A stretch of 42,602 nucleotides of DNA from a virus. The translations under genes and the position numbers were made by a program. The DNA is taken from positions 1 to 42,602 of the IMG/VR virus record IMGVR_UViG_3300049617_000251. The stretch is one strand, 5' to 3'. Numbering within the stretch: position 1 is the first letter of the stretch; every line of letters begins with the position of its first letter. Below the pieces are notes generated by a model. It ran no database searches and was not told where the DNA came from. It saw only the letters and a list, made by a program, of their open reading frames with translations. This document shows, in pieces, positions 2,528 through 41,042 of the stretch.

Positions 2528-2609
2528 TATTCCCTTATCTGCCGGGCGATGGTAAGGTTCTGTCATCCTTGATGGGATTTTTTTATGTCAGAATCATTTT
2601 ATGATATAC

Positions 2610-2616
2610 TACATAA
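2610..2616 (+). promoter_or_regulatory. TACATAA late-promoter-like box
   Basis: TACATAA-CAGT-ATG, where the ATG is the start chosen at 2621. The spacing equals that at 11807, 22509 and 38098. Confidence 0.45.
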
Positions 2617-2620
2617 CAGT

Positions 2621-3502
2621 ATGAAGATTTGTAAAAAATGTAACAAAGAACTTGATTTATGTTATTTCAATAAGTTTAGCAAAGCAAAGGACGGACTGCA
2701 ATCTTATTGTCGCAAATGCCAATCAATAGTGTTGCAAGAATATAAGCTTAAAGTTGGCATCAAATATTTAACAGAAAAAAGACTAAGATGGAGCAAGAAC
2801 AATAAAGATAAGGACAAGGCTGCTCGTAAAAAATGGAGACAATTACATCCAGAGAGCGTTAAGAAATATCATAACAAACTAAGATTGCGAGCAATGAAAA
2901 TGGTTTCCAAAGAATTAGTTTGTGCATGTTGTAAGTGTAATGAGTGTGAACTACTTGAAATAAATCATAAAAATTGCGGCGGCAGGAAAGAATTAAAGGA
3001 AGTTTACGGCAATAATTCATGCTTTTATTTGTCCATAGCCAACAATAAAAGATCAGTCGAAGATTTGGAACTATTGTGCAAACTCTGTAATAGTTTACAT
3101 TATTCGGAACATGAACATGGTCGTCTTCCTTATGAAATTAAATGGAAAGGTAGGAATAACAAACAATATCAAAGGGCGGAAGCGACTAAGCTTGAAACTA
3201 TTCATGAGGATCGTTATTGGCATAGGCATAATCGTAAATTACGTAGTAAAGCGTTAGATGTAGTTGGACGTGGCAAGGTAGAATGTGTCAGATGTGGATG
3301 TAACAAAAAAGAGATTTTAGAAATCAATCATAAGAATTGTGATGGGAAAAAAAAAGATAGACATAGCCAGAGAATGTTCAGAAAAATTATACACGGCGAA
3401 AGAGAAATTGATGATTTGGAGATACTGTGTCGTATATGCAACATATTGCATTATGTGGAATTCAAAAACGGGCCGCAACCATTTAAGGTAAATTGGAGTT
3501 AA
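2621..3502 (+). CDS. HNH-type homing endonuclease with duplicated core
   Basis: 293 aa. It opens with a zinc-binding motif (CKKC...CRKC, residues 4-32) and then repeats an HNH-like unit. The first copy is CACC...LEINHKNCGG...LELLCKLCN and the second CVRCGC...LEINHKNCDG...LEILCRICN. In both, the INHKN histidine and the CxxCN finger are present, so both copies look intact. It is probably a selfish endonuclease that cuts alleles lacking the gene. The start at 2621 is favoured over ATG 2585 because TACATAA lies 4 nt before it and MKICKKC is the usual opening of such proteins. The gene sits just before gp47 and ends 2 nt before its start, a typical homing position. Confidence 0.8.
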   Translation: MKICKKCNKELDLCYFNKFSKAKDGLQSYCRKCQSIVLQEYKLKVGIKYLTEKRLRWSKNNKDKDKAARKKWRQLHPESVKKYHNKLRLRAMKMVSKELVCACCKCNECELLEINHKNCGGRKELKEVYGNNSCFYLSIANNKRSVEDLELLCKLCNSLHYSEHEHGRLPYEIKWKGRNNKQYQRAEATKLETIHEDRYWHRHNRKLRSKALDVVGRGKVECVRCGCNKKEILEINHKNCDGKKKDRHSQRMFRKIIHGEREIDDLEILCRICNILHYVEFKNGPQPFKVNWS

Positions 3503-11806: not shown

Positions 11807-12256
11807 ATGAAAATCAAGTTTAAGGAATACCTTCTAAATGAAGGCAAACAATTCTTGGCAGATCGAGTCAAGGATGTTTTAGATGCAGTTGAAGACTTGA
11901 TCTCGGCAGGAAAGCAAGTGGGAGCAAGGCAACTTCTTCGCAATTCTGAAGGCATCGTCAATCAAATCAGAAATATTCTTCATCAAAGCTGGACTCGAAC
12001 CGACTACAAGTCGCTGCGAATGCTGCAAAAGTGCGGCGTTGCCATCATGAAAACCATCGATGAGAAAGGTGATCTTCGTGAAACCCTACAAAGTGTGCGG
12101 CTAGAAATGAAGAAGCTCATGAAGAAACTCGGACAGCCTGTCAAGACAGAACCAGAAGAAGAGCCAGAGCCGACACAACCGCCACCGCCACAACAACCTC
12201 AACCTCAGCAGCAACCACAGCCCCAAGGTGATGAGCAGCCTCAAATGTCACAATAG
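11807..12256 (+). CDS. Internal head protein candidate with capsid-targeting N-terminus
   Basis: 149 aa. MKIKFKEYLLNEGKQF resembles the T4 capsid-targeting sequence, and LLNE followed by G fits the gp21 cleavage rule. Residues 20-105 are predicted helical (KDVLDAVEDLISAGKQVGARQLLRN...). The C-terminal 40 residues are a Pro/Gln/Glu low-complexity tail. It has its own late-promoter-like box. Probably packaged in the head and trimmed during maturation; what it does after injection is unknown. Same start style as the genes at 2204 and 40527. Confidence 0.7.
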   Translation: MKIKFKEYLLNEGKQFLADRVKDVLDAVEDLISAGKQVGARQLLRNSEGIVNQIRNILHQSWTRTDYKSLRMLQKCGVAIMKTIDEKGDLRETLQSVRLEMKKLMKKLGQPVKTEPEEEPEPTQPPPPQQPQPQQQPQPQGDEQPQMSQ

Positions 12257-19970: not shown

Positions 19971-20342
19971 ATGATAGTCATCAATCTCAAAAACGTTGAA
20001 GAGTTAATCTTCCAGAAAGCAGAACTAAGAAAGTTGCTCCCTGACCTCCAACATCTGTTTGATCAATGGCATTTAAGTTACCGACTTCCAGCCCTTGGTT
20101 CATTAAGAACCAAGTCTAAACTTGACCTGATCAACTTAATGAGCGACGAACACATTCGTGTTCTCGAAGAGTATTTCCAAGATAGTGTAGTAATTGATAA
20201 ACTGAACTACAACATTGTCAAGAATATATTATTTCCACTTGACCTTGAAAGACTTGGCGGCTTATTATCAGATGTAGAGGGGTTTGCTAATTTCACAATT
20301 AGCCGAGATGTTGACAAGGTGTATATAAGCATGTGGAGATAA
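19971..20342 (+). CDS. Conserved phage protein of unknown function, 123 aa
   Basis: MIVINLKNVEELIFQKAELRKLLPDLQHLFDQWHLSYRLPALGS... Internal segments LFDQWHLSYRLPAL and DKLNYNIVKNILFPL look like a conserved small phage protein with no known function. ATG 19971 is used because the in-frame start at 19920 would put the T-tract inside the gene. It heads a plus-strand operon of seven genes ending with the sedolisin. It is followed with 2 nt spacing by the next gene. Confidence 0.72.
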   Translation: MIVINLKNVEELIFQKAELRKLLPDLQHLFDQWHLSYRLPALGSLRTKSKLDLINLMSDEHIRVLEEYFQDSVVIDKLNYNIVKNILFPLDLERLGGLLSDVEGFANFTISRDVDKVYISMWR

Positions 20343-21871: not shown

Positions 21872-22225
21872 ATGGCAGATAATACTATTGCATTTTACAG
21901 GTTATATTGTGACTATTGTGGTTACAACAAGGTAACAGACGGTTCGGATTGTGGAGGCTTGAGGGAATACAAAAGGTCGCCAATTCAGCGTGGCATACCT
22001 CAATACGATCCTGCTAAAAAGAAGATCGTAGCTCCAGAAATGATTCACTTGCCCAAACAATTCAAATGTCCAGGCTGTGGACGTTTGATTCGTCCCAAGA
22101 GTATAACTGAGGTGATAAAGAAAAATGACGCAAGTAAGTCTGAGAGAGATCAAGATGGCATTCTCGGACCCGAAGTTCCGAGCCAGCCTCCCACCGATAC
22201 TCAAAGCGGATATCCAAAAATATGA
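21872..22225 (+). CDS. Zinc-ribbon protein, 117 aa
   Basis: A ribosome site GGAGG precedes the ATG. Two CxxC pairs, CDYCGY (14-19) and CPGCGRL (about 67-73), would bind one zinc ion. The segment between is basic (EYKRSPIQRGIPQYDPAKKKI). The last 34 residues are read from the same DNA as the start of the next gene in another frame. It may bind nucleic acid or protein; no further clue. Confidence 0.72.
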   Translation: MADNTIAFYRLYCDYCGYNKVTDGSDCGGLREYKRSPIQRGIPQYDPAKKKIVAPEMIHLPKQFKCPGCGRLIRPKSITEVIKKNDASKSERDQDGILGPEVPSQPPTDTQSGYPKI

Positions 22226-22487
22226 ACAAAATCCTTCTTGTTCTTGCAACCTGGATGTGTATCGTAACACATTAAAACATGCACGCAAGGAGCTTCAAGC
22301 TTACTATCCAGATCGTCAGATTGTTGATGAAATTGGCAAGCTTGTAGAAAATAATTGGTCAGTATTTTCGTGCCACATTGATGAATTGGAAAAGTTTCTC
22401 AAAAAACTCTCTGCTGGAAGAAAGCAAATAGCGTTAGCACGCTATCAAGATCAGGTGACAGTTATTGTTAATGAATTAGATTTTTAA
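22125..22487 (+). CDS. Conserved phage protein of unknown function, 120 aa
   Basis: MTQVSLREIKMAFSDPKFRASLPPILKADIQKYEQNPSCSCNLDVYRNTLKHARKEL... Segments LREIKMAFSDPKFRASLP, NPSCSCN and GRKQIALARYQDQVTVIVN look strongly constrained, so the frame is real although 101 nt overlap the previous gene. No function known. Its stop lies within the 5' arm of the inverted repeat that precedes the sedolisin. Confidence 0.72.
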   Translation: MTQVSLREIKMAFSDPKFRASLPPILKADIQKYEQNPSCSCNLDVYRNTLKHARKELQAYYPDRQIVDEIGKLVENNWSVFSCHIDELEKFLKKLSAGRKQIALARYQDQVTVIVNELDF

Positions 22488-22517
22488 TCATACAGCATAA
22501 ATAACTGTATGATTAAA
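22483..22517 (+). promoter_or_regulatory. 13-bp inverted repeat enclosing a late promoter and start codon
   Basis: TTTAATCATACAG (22483-22495) and CTGTATGATTAAA (22505-22517) are perfect complements. The 9-nt spacer is CATAAATAA, a T4-like late promoter box. The ATG of the sedolisin (22509) lies in the 3' arm and the stop codon of the upstream gene in the 5' arm. In a read-through transcript the start would be buried in a hairpin; a transcript starting at the late promoter would lack the 5' arm. Confidence 0.75.
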
Positions 22518-23591
22518 TCCTATATTCGTTTTCCAAAGATCAAATTTTCAGCGGCTCAGTCCCTTTCCTACTATCCAACTCAAGTAGCAGAGTTGTACAA
22601 GTTCCCAAAACGTACTGGGAAAGGATGCAAAATTGGATTTATTGAGCTTGGCGGCGGTTACGCAAAAAGTGACCTTAATACTTTCTTTCATACGTTGAAC
22701 TTACCTGTCCCTATAGTAAAAGACCGTCTTATCGATGGGGCTACCAATTCTCCAGACGGCATCAATGGGGCACAAGGGGAAGTTACTTTAGACATAGAGG
22801 TTGGACTAGCAGTAGCCCCGCAAGCAGAGGGTATTGTTTATTTTGCTCCTAACTCCAATGATGGCTTCTTAAATGCAATCAAAGCAGCAATTGCTGACAA
22901 AGTAGATGCAATCAGCATTAGCTGGGGAGGTCCAGAAAACCAATGGTCCCCTTCAGACATGCATGCTTACGATGCTGTTTTTCATGCAACGAATATCCCA
23001 ATATTTGTCGCCGCTGGCGATAACGGCAGTGGTGATGGAGAATCTGGCCAACATGTGGACTTTCCTGGATCGAGTCCCCATGTCATTTGCTGCGGCGGCA
23101 CAACACTTATCGGGAACGTAAGTAGTAGCGGCATTCAGTCTGAAACTGTTTGGAACGATGGCTCTCAGGGCGGTGCGACAGGTGGAGGATTCTCTGCAAT
23201 ATTTGGCCGTCCAAGCTATCAATCACACATAGGATTCACTTCTAATAAACAAAGAGGAGTTCCAGATATCGCAGGCAATGCAGATCCTAACACGGGCTAC
23301 AATTGCTACATTGCCGGACAATGGCTACCAATCGGCGGAACAAGTGCTTGTGCCCCTTTATTTGCTGGATTATACTGTTTGCTAAAAGAAGCACTCGGTA
23401 ATGCGAACTTTTTTCTTGGATTTTTATATCAATATCATCAACATTGCATTCGTGATATCACAGAAGGCAACAATGGAGCTTATAAATCTGCTAAGGGGTG
23501 GGATGCTTGCACTGGCTGGGGAGTCCCTGTTGGCGAAGAGATGTTGCAAGAATTAGCTCAAGCTATTGGACCGCCAGTGGTTGTGCCTTAA
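22509..23591 (+). CDS. Sedolisin-family serine-carboxyl peptidase (S53), no pro-domain
   Basis: 360 aa, matching only the mature catalytic part of kumamolisin-like enzymes. Catalytic residues are complete: E91 and D95 in GEVTLDIEV, D171 in AAGDNG (oxyanion hole) and S279 in GGTSACAP. The calcium site DITEGNNGAY...GWDACTGWG is present near 316-338. There is no signal peptide and no pro-peptide of about 190 residues, which such enzymes normally need for folding and latency. Sedolisins usually act at acid pH on unfolded proteins. Expression is probably late, from the box at 22496. A role in lysis, head maturation or particle entry is possible; none is shown. Confidence 0.9.
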   Translation: MIKSYIRFPKIKFSAAQSLSYYPTQVAELYKFPKRTGKGCKIGFIELGGGYAKSDLNTFFHTLNLPVPIVKDRLIDGATNSPDGINGAQGEVTLDIEVGLAVAPQAEGIVYFAPNSNDGFLNAIKAAIADKVDAISISWGGPENQWSPSDMHAYDAVFHATNIPIFVAAGDNGSGDGESGQHVDFPGSSPHVICCGGTTLIGNVSSSGIQSETVWNDGSQGGATGGGFSAIFGRPSYQSHIGFTSNKQRGVPDIAGNADPNTGYNCYIAGQWLPIGGTSACAPLFAGLYCLLKEALGNANFFLGFLYQYHQHCIRDITEGNNGAYKSAKGWDACTGWGVPVGEEMLQELAQAIGPPVVVP

Positions 23592-24186
23592 GTCTATTTT
23601 CTCTTAACTTTTTGAATAGATTGCCAATTTCAATGGCTTCTTCAAAAGTCCAAACATTACTTTTGGCTTGATTGCAGTTTTTGCAACAAGGGACAACATT
23701 GTCAGGCACATACCCTTTTAAACTATTTTTTCTATCTAAGCCAATACCACTTTCTTCAAGTGGCCCATCACAATAGAAACATAGCTGTTTGGTTAAATTG
23801 ACATATGACTGTTCGGTTATTTCCCAAGAAAGATTCTTTTGCTGGGCACGAATTTTTGAATTACGCCACCTATTATGTGGTTCTCTCTTCGCAATTTTTC
23901 TTCTCGCAAGATAGTCAGGAGTTCTTTGATGTGTTCTATCATATTCATTTTTACAAACTTTACATGTTGATGTAAGTTTATTGTCTTTGTAAAGATAGAA
24001 ACATGACTCATGCTTGTTTTGCTTACATTTCAAACAAACTCTATGGCGGTCTCCGTTCATAGTGGTTATTCTCTTGCTGATGTGCAAAGTATAACAGGTT
24101 TTTGAGCAAAAATGATGTGTATACCTAGAGATTCTGCTTGGCCTTTTGTTGAAACGTTTGCTGCATTCTGTGCATGTTACTTTCAT
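23563..24186 (-). CDS. HNH-type homing endonuclease
   Basis: 207 aa; MKVTCTECSKRF at 24186 is taken as the start since the zinc motif begins there. CTEC...CSKTC and CLKCKQ...CKVCKNEY are two N-terminal zinc-binding units. The HNH core is CFYCDGPLEESGIGLDRKNSLKGYVPDNVVPCCKNCNQAKSN. It converges with the sedolisin gene and overlaps its 3' end by 29 nt. Confidence 0.8.
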   Translation of the reverse strand: MKVTCTECSKRFNKRPSRISRYTHHFCSKTCYTLHISKRITTMNGDRHRVCLKCKQNKHESCFYLYKDNKLTSTCKVCKNEYDRTHQRTPDYLARRKIAKREPHNRWRNSKIRAQQKNLSWEITEQSYVNLTKQLCFYCDGPLEESGIGLDRKNSLKGYVPDNVVPCCKNCNQAKSNVWTFEEAIEIGNLFKKLRENRLKAQPLAVQ

Positions 24187-24225
24187 TGTTAGGAATGTAT
24201 CAAATATGCCGAATATTGTCAATAG

Positions 24226-25089
24226 CTACTCAGCAGGCATAATCTTGCATTTTTGAATCATCAAAGAAGGATACTCTTCGTATTTAGGGATATGCATGGG
24301 CCAGGCGTCATCATTAAGACGCCTGGCTCCTAGTATTTTGGCGTTGTTGTAAAAGCATTCAGCCCTGGTTAAATCATTAGCCTTGAAGAATATATCTCCA
24401 AGCAAACACCAAAACTCGGCCATAAGAGGATTCGCCGCAATGCACATTGCAGCCTGTTGAATGGCTTCATTGAAATTCAACTCAAGACAGCTTATTACTC
24501 CTAGGTAGTATCTCAACATGGAACAGGCTATGACCTTTTTTTGTTGTAAAAGGCATTGCTTGGCAAGACCGACGAACTCTTTATAACTGCCAGCAGTCAA
24601 AGATTGCAACGCTTTGAAATATTTCATGTCTTGCGAGAAAGGTTGACTTTTTTCCCAACAACCAAGCAATTCTTTAAGCTCGTCTTGCCTATCAATTTTG
24701 TTCTCCCATATGACTGAACAAGAAAACTCCTCAATACTTGTCTTCAATGTTTCAAAAATTGGGTTCACAAAACTGCAATTCAAGCCTTTGTGCCACAAAC
24801 GAACCTCTTTTCTGATTGATTCTCCAGACAATATGGTCATGCGATAGGCGTGCGGACGCCCATTGATAAGGGATTCTATGTCATCATCGGGCATTAGTAT
24901 TTCCCAAGGTTCTATATACAGGTTCCAGTCTGTTTTGCTTTCTTGAAGCATTTGGTTACGAACGACAGCTAAGTCTTTACTGGTTCCAAGATCGACAGTT
25001 AGGATATTATTCTTTAACCGAGCCAGAGATGTCAAGGTCTGTTTTGGATTGATTTGTGGACGAAGAACTATGTGAGTCGTAAGATTCAT
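24226..25089 (-). CDS. Glycosyltransferase-like / TPR-like protein
   Basis: 287 aa. The N-terminal half resembles a reduced family 2 glycosyltransferase fold: ILTVDLGTSKDLAVVRNQMLQESKTDWNLYIEPWE (about 29-63). It lacks a clear DxD. The C-terminal part (about 190-265) has helical repeats like TPRs (YYLGVISCLELNFNEAIQQAAMCIAANPLMAEFWCLLGDIFFKANDLTRAECFY, in pieces). Enzymatic activity is doubtful without the metal motif. It overlaps the upstream small gene by 83 nt. Possibly linked to surface-glycan recognition or modification. Confidence 0.6.
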   Translation of the reverse strand: MNLTTHIVLRPQINPKQTLTSLARLKNNILTVDLGTSKDLAVVRNQMLQESKTDWNLYIEPWEILMPDDDIESLINGRPHAYRMTILSGESIRKEVRLWHKGLNCSFVNPIFETLKTSIEEFSCSVIWENKIDRQDELKELLGCWEKSQPFSQDMKYFKALQSLTAGSYKEFVGLAKQCLLQQKKVIACSMLRYYLGVISCLELNFNEAIQQAAMCIAANPLMAEFWCLLGDIFFKANDLTRAECFYNNAKILGARRLNDDAWPMHIPKYEEYPSLMIQKCKIMPAE

Positions 25090-25349: not shown

Positions 25350-25883
25350 TTGAAGACAGAGTACCTAAACAACAAAATCCTGGAAGGCAACATTGCCAAT
25401 TTCAAAAAAGCCAAGAAAGACAAGTTCAAATATGAACTCATTTTAGGCGATTTGACCAAATCTGTAGCGATCAGAGAACCGTCAATAGAAAGAGAACAAC
25501 TACTTACGTTGAAACGTTTGGAATATAATAAGGTGGTTACTGATTTTAATATGTTACATGCTCAATTGGCGGCACAATTTCTTACCCTTGCTCAAAACAT
25601 AATCCGTTATCGCAAATTTCATTTCGTTGATACAGATGATGCGACACAAGAATTTGCTATGATTTGCCTAGAAAAATTAGACTATTTTGACCCCAAGAAG
25701 GGAAAATGTTTTAATTATCTCACAACTTGTGTTTTAAACCACTATAGACAGCTATACAGGTCAGCCCGCAACTACAATGAACTGAAGAAGAAATTTCATG
25801 ATCATCTCGAAAATAAGTCAAAAATTTCAGGAAAAAACAGGAAAAAGATGAAAACTTGTAATGACGCAAGATATCGTGATTGA
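25350..25883 (+). CDS. 55: gp55-like late-transcription sigma factor
   Basis: 177 aa with a TTG start, set by AGGAG 4 nt upstream. The middle carries the short sigma region 2 as in T4 gp55-like factors: VDTDDATQEFAMICLEKLDYFDPKKGKCFNYLTTCVLNHYRQLYRSARNY (about 92-141, given in parts: DDATQEFAMICLEKL, FNYLTTCVLNHYRQ). T4 gp55 replaces sigma-70 on host RNA polymerase and recognises TATAAATA at -10 with no -35. The basic C-terminus (KSKISGKNRKKMK) may hold the clamp-binding tail. The TAnATAA boxes in this window are its likely targets. Confidence 0.78.
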   Translation: MKTEYLNNKILEGNIANFKKAKKDKFKYELILGDLTKSVAIREPSIEREQLLTLKRLEYNKVVTDFNMLHAQLAAQFLTLAQNIIRYRKFHFVDTDDATQEFAMICLEKLDYFDPKKGKCFNYLTTCVLNHYRQLYRSARNYNELKKKFHDHLENKSKISGKNRKKMKTCNDARYRD

Positions 25884-34199: not shown

Positions 34200-34473
34200 C
34201 TTTGATGCCCAAGTTAGTCAATTGCTGCTTGTATACATCGATTGCCCTGGTAAATCCTATTTCGTGAATGTCGTTTACCAATTTATTAAAAGCTATCATG
34301 TCGCCATCTGTTATGATACATGTGGAGATTCTTGAAATGAGATCTTGATATTGAACATACTTTTCATTAAGCAGTTCGGCCATAAACTTCTTGATGGCCA
34401 ATCCTCTTGGATTTTGCAGACTATCCAACCAATTAGTCCCGATGCTTTTTTCGTTTCTTTCTTCTTGGGCCAT
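34165..34473 (-). CDS. Unknown protein, 102 aa
   Basis: MAQEERNEKSIGTNWLDSLQNPRGLAIKKFMAELLNEKYVQYQDLISRI... is mostly helical and polar, with no recognised motif. The start (MAQEER) lies inside the previous gene and overlaps it by 41 nt; the 3' end overlaps the convergent gene by 35 nt. It belongs to the minus-strand group with the 1090-aa protein. Confidence 0.62.
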   Translation of the reverse strand: MAQEERNEKSIGTNWLDSLQNPRGLAIKKFMAELLNEKYVQYQDLISRISTCIITDGDMIAFNKLVNDIHEIGFTRAIDVYKQQLTNLGIKVTVKKNQDSGQ

Positions 34474-34822
34474 GATTTTCCTTGTCACTGCATGCTCCCC
34501 ATACCTGATAATCAGCAGTAGGCTTACAGCTACCTACGATGGCATCGGTTCCGACTTCATTTTTCATGCGGTTGACCAAATCCCAATAAGCTTCAGGCCC
34601 GCCGCACACATGTTCGTTACTGTAATAGAGTATAGCCTGCTCGACAAGTTTAGCAGCTTGATCTAAATTCAGTCCATACGATGTCATGGTCTGAAAAATC
34701 ATAGCTTCGGTCATGATCCTGTACTTGGCACTACCATCTTGTCGAAACCATTTGTCGGCCACTTCTTTGACATTTACAGGGATAATTTGTGCAAACCATT
34801 CCTTAAATTTTAGCTGGTTCAT
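34433..34822 (-). CDS. Unknown protein, 129 aa, with FKEWF-type start
   Basis: MNQLKFKEWFAQIIPVN resembles the capsid-targeting style (FKEYL, FREFL) seen in three other proteins here, but has no matching Glu cleavage site. The middle is helical (YGLNLDQAAKLVEQAILYYSNEH), the C-terminus has two Cys and a very basic end (RRKKRKKHRD) that could bind DNA. It overlaps the 1090-aa gene by 20 nt. A head-associated role is possible. Confidence 0.62.
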   Translation of the reverse strand: MNQLKFKEWFAQIIPVNVKEVADKWFRQDGSAKYRIMTEAMIFQTMTSYGLNLDQAAKLVEQAILYYSNEHVCGGPEAYWDLVNRMKNEVGTDAIVGSCKPTADYQVWGACSDKENHGPRRKKRKKHRD

Positions 34823-38097: not shown

Positions 38098-38994
38098 ATG
38101 CCAAATTGCGGATCAAACACGTTGTACATTAAAAGACCTAGCCAAAAGGATTTTAATGCTCTTGCCTCTTGCCCAAACACTTCCTGCGTTGGTCTTACGG
38201 ACCCAGTGGGGTGTGGCAAAATAGGTCCAAGACCAAATCGTGGAATTGTACGTGAACAAATCAAAGATGCAGTGCTTCTTATGCTTGGGGCACCTGTTAT
38301 GAAAATTGAATTAGACGATCAAAACTTGGACGGAGCATGTGATTTGGCCCTAATGGTTCTTGAGCAATATGCTGGTAGAGAGTATTTCACTTATTATGTT
38401 TTTAACACGCTGCCAGGAAAAAGCGTGTATACTATGCCTCCAGATGTTGGCATAGTGAGAAATGTTTTCTACCGAGAACAGCCTGGTCTCTTTTTTAACG
38501 CTTCAGACATTGGTGGTGCGTTACCAATTGAATATTATTACCCAGGTGGAGCTTATGCTTCCATGCAAGGTGGCTTGATGGACCCAAATCAACCAATTTA
38601 TGGTCGTGCTGGAGAATGGGTTCTTTACAAACAGTACGAACAGATGTATGCTCGGCTTTCAAGCCAACTTGGTGGCTGGGAATGGGTTGATGGTTATTGT
38701 AATATCAAATTGTATCCAACTCCGTGTCGCTGCAACGCAGTTATCGTTCATTATCTGCAAAGACAACCAGACTTCAAACAGGTCACTCAGGCAATGATCG
38801 AAGGAGCTTTGATTTACGCCAAGGAGATGCTTGGTCGAATTCGCAGCAAATATGGTGGAACCATTCCAGGTCCAGGCGGGCCAGTTACCTTGGATGGCGA
38901 TAAATTGATTCAAGAAGCCAGAGAAGACAAGGAAAAATGGATGGAACAGCTAATTTACAGATACGGCGATTTGCTTGGACCTACTATGGATTGA
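38098..38994 (+). CDS. 13: gp13-like neck protein
   Basis: 298 aa. Residues 50-100 (IVREQIKDAVLLMLGAPVMKIELDDQ, then ACDLALMVLEQYAGREYFTYYVF) match the N-terminal pattern of T4 gp13-like neck proteins (xxRxLGAPxIxIELTxDQ...A...Y). An N-terminal 45 residues with five Cys is extra. GKSVYTMPPDVGIVRNVFY and the C-terminal helical part (MIEGALIYAKEMLGRIRSKYGG) complete the fold. In T4 gp13 and gp14 complete the head so it can bind a tail. Residues 146-182 are copied in the protein at 32570. Confidence 0.7.
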   Translation: MPNCGSNTLYIKRPSQKDFNALASCPNTSCVGLTDPVGCGKIGPRPNRGIVREQIKDAVLLMLGAPVMKIELDDQNLDGACDLALMVLEQYAGREYFTYYVFNTLPGKSVYTMPPDVGIVRNVFYREQPGLFFNASDIGGALPIEYYYPGGAYASMQGGLMDPNQPIYGRAGEWVLYKQYEQMYARLSSQLGGWEWVDGYCNIKLYPTPCRCNAVIVHYLQRQPDFKQVTQAMIEGALIYAKEMLGRIRSKYGGTIPGPGGPVTLDGDKLIQEAREDKEKWMEQLIYRYGDLLGPTMD

Positions 38995-40526: not shown

Positions 40527-41042
40527 ATGGCTAACTTCAAAGAATACTTAGAATCCCGAGAACTCGGTGATGATTGTTTGTTAATGATTTCGAAAGACGA
40601 CTCGCTTGATGAATCTGCCGATAGCACCCGGTACAGTGTAGAAGTAAACTATCGCACCAGGCCCGATGAGGTGCTGGAAGCTTTCGCTAAAATTGCTTTG
40701 GGCTATGTCAGTGCGGGCATCAAGCAACACGATTTTCACGTCAAGCATGTGTACGCAGAAAAGCCAATCAGAATTTTGGTTTCGAGCAGGAACTGGGACG
40801 ACGGCGAATGGGTCGTCACGGTTAGCTGGCACGATAAAGACCGATGCTTTGTTGTATCCAAAGGCTTCTACAACAAAGATCGTCGCACCGTCAGCGTCCA
40901 GCAGAGCGAAAAATGCAAAGGTGAAAACGCTGCCGAATTAGCCAAGCAAGTCTACAACATGATGCACTCTCTCAAAGATGTGCCAGATCGTCACCAGGCA
41001 AAGCTCAAGCCAGTTCCTCTTAAGAGAGGGCCAAAAGGGTAA
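40527..41042 (+). CDS. Internal head protein candidate, 171 aa
   Basis: MANFKEYLESRELGDD resembles the capsid-targeting start of the 2204 and 11807 proteins; the cleavage site is less clear (YLE-S or SRE-L). The rest is a folded-looking alpha/beta domain (YSVEVNYRTRPDEVLEAFAKIALGYVSAG, WVVTVSWHDKDRCFVVSKGFY) and a basic tail (KLKPVPLKRGPKG). Expressed from a late-promoter-like box at leaderless distance. A function after injection is possible. It converges directly with the next gene. Confidence 0.65.
   Translation: MANFKEYLESRELGDDCLLMISKDDSLDESADSTRYSVEVNYRTRPDEVLEAFAKIALGYVSAGIKQHDFHVKHVYAEKPIRILVSSRNWDDGEWVVTVSWHDKDRCFVVSKGFYNKDRRTVSVQQSEKCKGENAAELAKQVYNMMHSLKDVPDRHQAKLKPVPLKRGPKG

Follow-up and report, generated by a model that had tools for sequence, protein, structure and literature searches.

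A perfect hairpin around a predicted late promoter at the start codon of an inserted phage sedolisin gene: a possible leaderless variant of the T4 start switch

In bacteriophage T4, the genes e, soc, 49 and I-TevI, and also segB, carry hairpins over their translation start together with an adjoining late promoter (PMC3014915). Repression was measured for e and I-TevI, and these hairpins are frequently found guarding inserted genes, of which I-TevI is one (PMC3014915). The T4 late box spans positions -13 to -6, as follows from the wording 'A(-13) in place of T' (PMC2988020), and a spacing of 5 nt between such a box and an ATG therefore puts the +1 on the A of the ATG. Leaderless phage transcripts are not new as a concept, since a paper on phage AR9 mentions in a passing remark that phage transcripts are often leaderless.

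The present analysis concerns a 42,602-base IMG/VR record (the whole stretch analysed, hereafter the window), whose genes find their matches in a group of T4-related large phages that includes LR756511.1 (595 kb) and contigs of 533, 343, 341, 246, 225 and 187 kb. A search for further clade members by means of the tail sheath stabilizer found none. At the start of a sedolisin gene, the window holds a hairpin (22483-22517) in which 13 of 13 base pairs form perfect arms around a 9-base loop, as the sequence-only reading had described (Table 1). The palindrome is beyond chance. No repeat with arms of at least 13 bp and a loop of at most 20 appeared in 60 first-order Markov simulations of the window, and for arms of at least 11 bp such simulations gave 0.32 expected. 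In the same way, the RNA fold of 61 nt reached -18.2 kcal/mol (z = -7.0), and 0 of 200 shuffles were equally stable. With as many as 3 mismatches allowed, the window gave no second copy, the same palindrome was not found in IMG/VR, and an Rfam search gave no match. Elsewhere in the window, at 590-629, a perfect 17-bp hairpin is located close to two tRNA genes.

Table 1. Features of the sedolisin locus, other window genes referred to in the text, and leaderless-class starts covered by a long stem. Positions are those of the window unless a contig is named.
Feature	Position	Strand	Remarks
TATATA box before upstream operon	20322..20327	+	followed by Shine-Dalgarno leader; G001 leader similar
Conserved 120-aa gene, last of upstream operon	22125..22487	+	end overlaps 5' arm
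Hairpin 5' arm TTTAATCATACAG	22483-22495	+	holds stop codon TAA (22485-22487) of upstream gene
Hairpin loop CATAAATAA	22496-22504	+	contains late box
T4-type late promoter box CATAAATA (predicted)	22496..22503	+	in hairpin loop; T4 box -13 to -6 (PMC2988020)
5-nt spacer, box to start codon	22504..22508	+	predicted +1 = 22509, A of ATG
Hairpin 3' arm CTGTATGATTAAA	22505-22517	+	contains sedolisin start codon (22509-22511)
Sedolisin (S53, kumamolisin-like)	22509..23591	+	no pro-domain, no Shine-Dalgarno
HNH / endonuclease VII-like gene	23563..24222	-	inserted along with sedolisin
Conserved convergent gene	24226..25089	-	directly after 120-aa gene in relatives (empty site)
gp55-type late sigma factor	25350..25883	+	phrog_234 profile match
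Head-tail adaptor gene	38098..38994	+	TATATA-N5-ATG, no Shine-Dalgarno; three relatives likewise
Long-stem leaderless-class start	G001 2529-3167		21 bp
Long-stem leaderless-class start	G001 71591-72109		15 bp
Long-stem leaderless-class start	window, sedolisin		13 bp
Long-stem leaderless-class start	G006 81430		13 bp, AT-rich, box within arm

The encoded protein is an S53 sedolisin by its predicted active site: it aligns with kumamolisin (E about 7e-87) with Glu91, Asp95, Asp171 and Ser279 where they would be expected, and the catalytic Ser/Glu/Asp and the oxyanion Asp are present. The same alignment agrees with the earlier claim of a protease without pro-domain. The choice of the ATG at 22509 as start is supported by a 72%-identical relative, whose own start aligns with it. 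This ATG is preceded by no Shine-Dalgarno, and most neighbouring genes have one. In the relatives, the convergent gene follows the 120-aa gene, within about 30-50 bp in most of them, and only the window has the sedolisin and HNH genes between the two. This empty site indicates that the protease is an insertion with the hairpin at its upstream junction. The inserted HNH gene carries a good sigma-70-like promoter (TTGACA-N17-TACATT; 24222-24186, minus strand) about 7 nt before its ATG and is perhaps another leaderless start, via a host-type promoter. Sedolisins are also present in dozens of phage contigs (L074-L115), many without room for a pro-domain; none was found in the phage record collection. 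That early sedolisin expression would be harmful is conjecture.

The sequence-only reading had placed a late promoter in the loop. In the whole window, ATAAATA is not over-represented (9 seen versus 10.3 expected) and the loop sequence is seen 2 times versus 0.9 expected; the ATAAATA box is informative by position only. A homologue of gp55 was found in the window and in all relatives tested. The window protein matches phrog_234 weakly (9e-4), its orthologues do so at 1e-6 to 3e-9, and all of them align. A profile was needed to find this sigma factor, as T4 gp55 gave no match in tblastn; a search with the phrog_12791 profile gave none either.

In the phage group, both types of box, ATAAATA and TATATA, show enrichment in front of genes. 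They form two sets, mostly 12-45 nt from the start where a Shine-Dalgarno is present and often 4-6 nt where it is absent, a contrast that is partly built in since a box at 4-6 nt takes the place of the Shine-Dalgarno. With gene starts taken from the analysis's own calls rather than from annotation, a box lies 4-6 nt before 109 of the 1660 group starts that lack a Shine-Dalgarno, with a mode at 5 nt, while the same spacing occurs at 11 of 12,173 internal ATGs without Shine-Dalgarno. The count comprises 65/739 in the initial set, from which the idea came and which contained the whole of LR756511, and 44/921 in contigs fetched afterwards. The 5-nt peak and the internal-ATG control are unaffected by displacement of the Shine-Dalgarno. 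Neither T4 nor the cyanophage S-SCSM1 has a box 4-6 nt before a start codon. The box-N5-ATG layout of the head-tail adaptor gene is kept in the window, in the related contigs G001 and G003 and in LR756511.

Genes are assigned here to a predicted leaderless class when they have no Shine-Dalgarno and a promoter spacing that puts the +1 at the start codon. The sedolisin, with its 5-nt spacer, falls into this class, as do the window genes at 38098, 40527, 33621, 33604 (-) and 26745 (-) and further genes in the sequences L018-L053, L056-L067 and L199-L286; in this group-wide class an ATAAATA or TATATA box stops 4-6 nt short of the start codon. Because boxes 4-6 nt before starts occur group-wide with a mode of 5 nt, the T4 +1 spacing, the loop box probably acts as a genuine late promoter that would yield a leaderless mRNA. 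It is backed as a T4-type late box by the gp55 homologue in the window together with the positional signature in related contigs, and the earlier proposal of a late promoter in the loop is supported. The predicted promoter is likely to be real, and a leaderless start of the sedolisin mRNA at the AUG is almost as likely.

The wider finding would be that the group shares a signature of leaderless late genes, as predicted from sequence. If it is true, a group of uncultivated huge phages couples late transcription directly to leaderless mRNA translation; the absence of a ribosome-binding site in some genes of the group would be explained, and true start codons would be easier to place. As a separate observation, proteins encoded at window positions 40527-41042, 11807-12256 and 34433-34822 (-) and by many leaderless-class genes of G001 and LR756511 often begin with MLNFRQW, MKTFxxWL or MANFKEYL. 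These N-termini presumably resemble the T4 sequence that targets packaged proteins to the capsid.

The 35 bp at the sedolisin may act both as a promoter and as a switch on the start codon of this inserted gene. The gp55-type sigma factor of the phage would, late in infection, bring RNA polymerase to CATAAATA in the loop. The RNA would then have the first base of the AUG (22509) as its 5' end, be without the 5' arm and be translated as leaderless mRNA. Read-through RNA from the upstream operon would have both arms, fold and hide an AUG that lacks a Shine-Dalgarno, and no sedolisin would be made from it. In fold predictions, the AUG has an unpaired probability of 0.001 in the read-through RNA and of 0.32-0.87 in RNA beginning at 22509; the view that the hairpin hides the ATG, which lies in the 3' arm, is thus upheld by the model. 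As in a T4-type switch, the predicted stem buries the AUG in the long RNA, and with the box in the loop the late RNA is predicted to be without the 5' arm.

A lock on early translation is plausible since the predicted hairpin energy (-19.7) equals that of T4 I-TevI and the AUG is modelled as almost always paired in read-through RNA. The hairpin has about an even chance of having been selected as a lock, and the explanation by a promoter and start-codon switch, taken as a whole, is given the same odds. The lock may be superfluous because an internal AUG that lacks a Shine-Dalgarno is weak in any case, and the read-through RNA may not be early, given that a TATATA box also precedes the upstream operon. 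The interpretation as a lock is overall partly supported, for a hairpin that is known on a sedolisin from one genome only.

The leaderless promoter may also be real with an incidental palindrome, that is a neutral or nearly neutral template-switch repeat at the insertion junction; this is possible, though rather unlikely. It would fit with the many long perfect inverted repeats found without a start codon inside genes of G001 (arms of 14-19 bp, for example 124805-124850, 128286-128329 and 242323-242368), and with the sporadic occurrence of the hairpin, which makes a mutational origin conceivable. None of 38 phage sedolisin loci inspected combines a box with a long hairpin. The closest relative of the sedolisin (L002/L074, 72% identical) has a Shine-Dalgarno, no hairpin and a TATATATA box further upstream, and the L002 gene adjoins a LAGLIDADG endonuclease gene. 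The sequence-only reading had named relatives with an intact gene but no complementarity as a refuting result; at the level of the gene such relatives were found, though none of the sedolisin relatives has the promoter arrangement of the window. By that criterion the hairpin does not go with the sedolisin gene, and at most it goes with that arrangement. One further sedolisin (L075, 52% identical, on a 447-kb contig at about 3001) shows a 9-bp stem beside its ATG with AAGGG in the loop, which is not significant after testing 38 loci.

Against an incidental palindrome, long stems over starts concentrate at the leaderless class. A perfect stem of at least 13 bp covers the start codon at 4 of 138 leaderless-class starts versus 1 of 3336 other starts (p = 1.2e-5), and the enrichment holds without the window (p = 2e-4). 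In addition, one of the hairpin genes (G001 2529-3167) retains in its LR756511 orthologue a repeat of different sequence, 8 bp long, around the box and ATG. On the other side of the count, no long stem was found at the 63 leaderless-class starts of the added contigs, and the hairpin as a general property of this class was rejected.

Unlike the switch, which would silence read-through RNA, translational coupling would make sedolisin output track the upstream gene: a ribosome ending at 22485-22487 would open the 5' arm and let translation (re)start at the AUG, which lies 21 nt further on. The stop codon inside the 5' arm is consistent with this, and blocking 22470-22502, as a ribosome at that stop would, raised the predicted probability that the AUG is unpaired from 0.001 to 0.16-0.66. 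Nevertheless, there is no Shine-Dalgarno for reinitiation, and coupling does not need the leaderless-type promoter found in the loop, so that it appears improbable. Read as DNA, the perfect dyad centred on the promoter box could be an operator for a dimeric regulator or a tyrosine recombinase site of loxP-like 13-9-13 design. The arms do have the length of those of loxP, but the lack of a second copy in the window or in IMG/VR makes this class of explanation very improbable, and the loxP reading was rejected as the spacer is 9 bp and not 8. An intrinsic terminator of the upstream operon, suggested by a stem-loop right at the stop codon, is scarcely credible and was rejected, as the stem is AT-rich rather than GC-rich, no T run follows on either strand and a terminator scan makes no call there.

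The switch may be one case among several: in a group of T4-related huge phages, gp55-type promoters may start late mRNAs at the AUG, with a few genes, including the sedolisin, locked by a hairpin in read-through RNA. This combined view is tentative, at slightly less than an even chance. If it is true, the hairpin would carry the timing lock of T4 over to leaderless genes and inserted cargo.

Compared with known systems, the protein shares its catalytic residues with kumamolisin but has no pro-domain; like many other phage copies, it starts directly with the mature domain. Like mycobacterial leaderless genes (PMC4633059), the gene has no Shine-Dalgarno and a predicted RNA start at the start codon, whereas that start would here be set by a phage late promoter. 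The box sequence and the gp55-type sigma factor recall the late promoters of T4 and cyanophages (TATAAATA / NATAAATA; PMC2988020, PMC2984593), yet the group differs from T4 and S-SCSM1 by over a hundred boxes 4-6 nt before starts and by TATATA being common too. As for the T4 hairpins on inserted genes, the sedolisin is also inserted, its start region would lie in a stable stem in the long RNA, and the late box is in or beside the 5' half. The analogy drawn earlier with e, soc and I-TevI holds for the predicted energies (e -17.7, 49 -18.6, I-TevI -19.7 and segB -19.4 versus -19.7 here). It does not extend to the late RNA, which in e, 49, I-TevI, segB and soc retains a Shine-Dalgarno between box and AUG, while the sedolisin has none. 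In addition, the sedolisin box sits in the loop with the AUG as predicted +1. By analogy, the sedolisin hairpin would work like the T4-type start switch, as a leaderless variant of it rather than a member.
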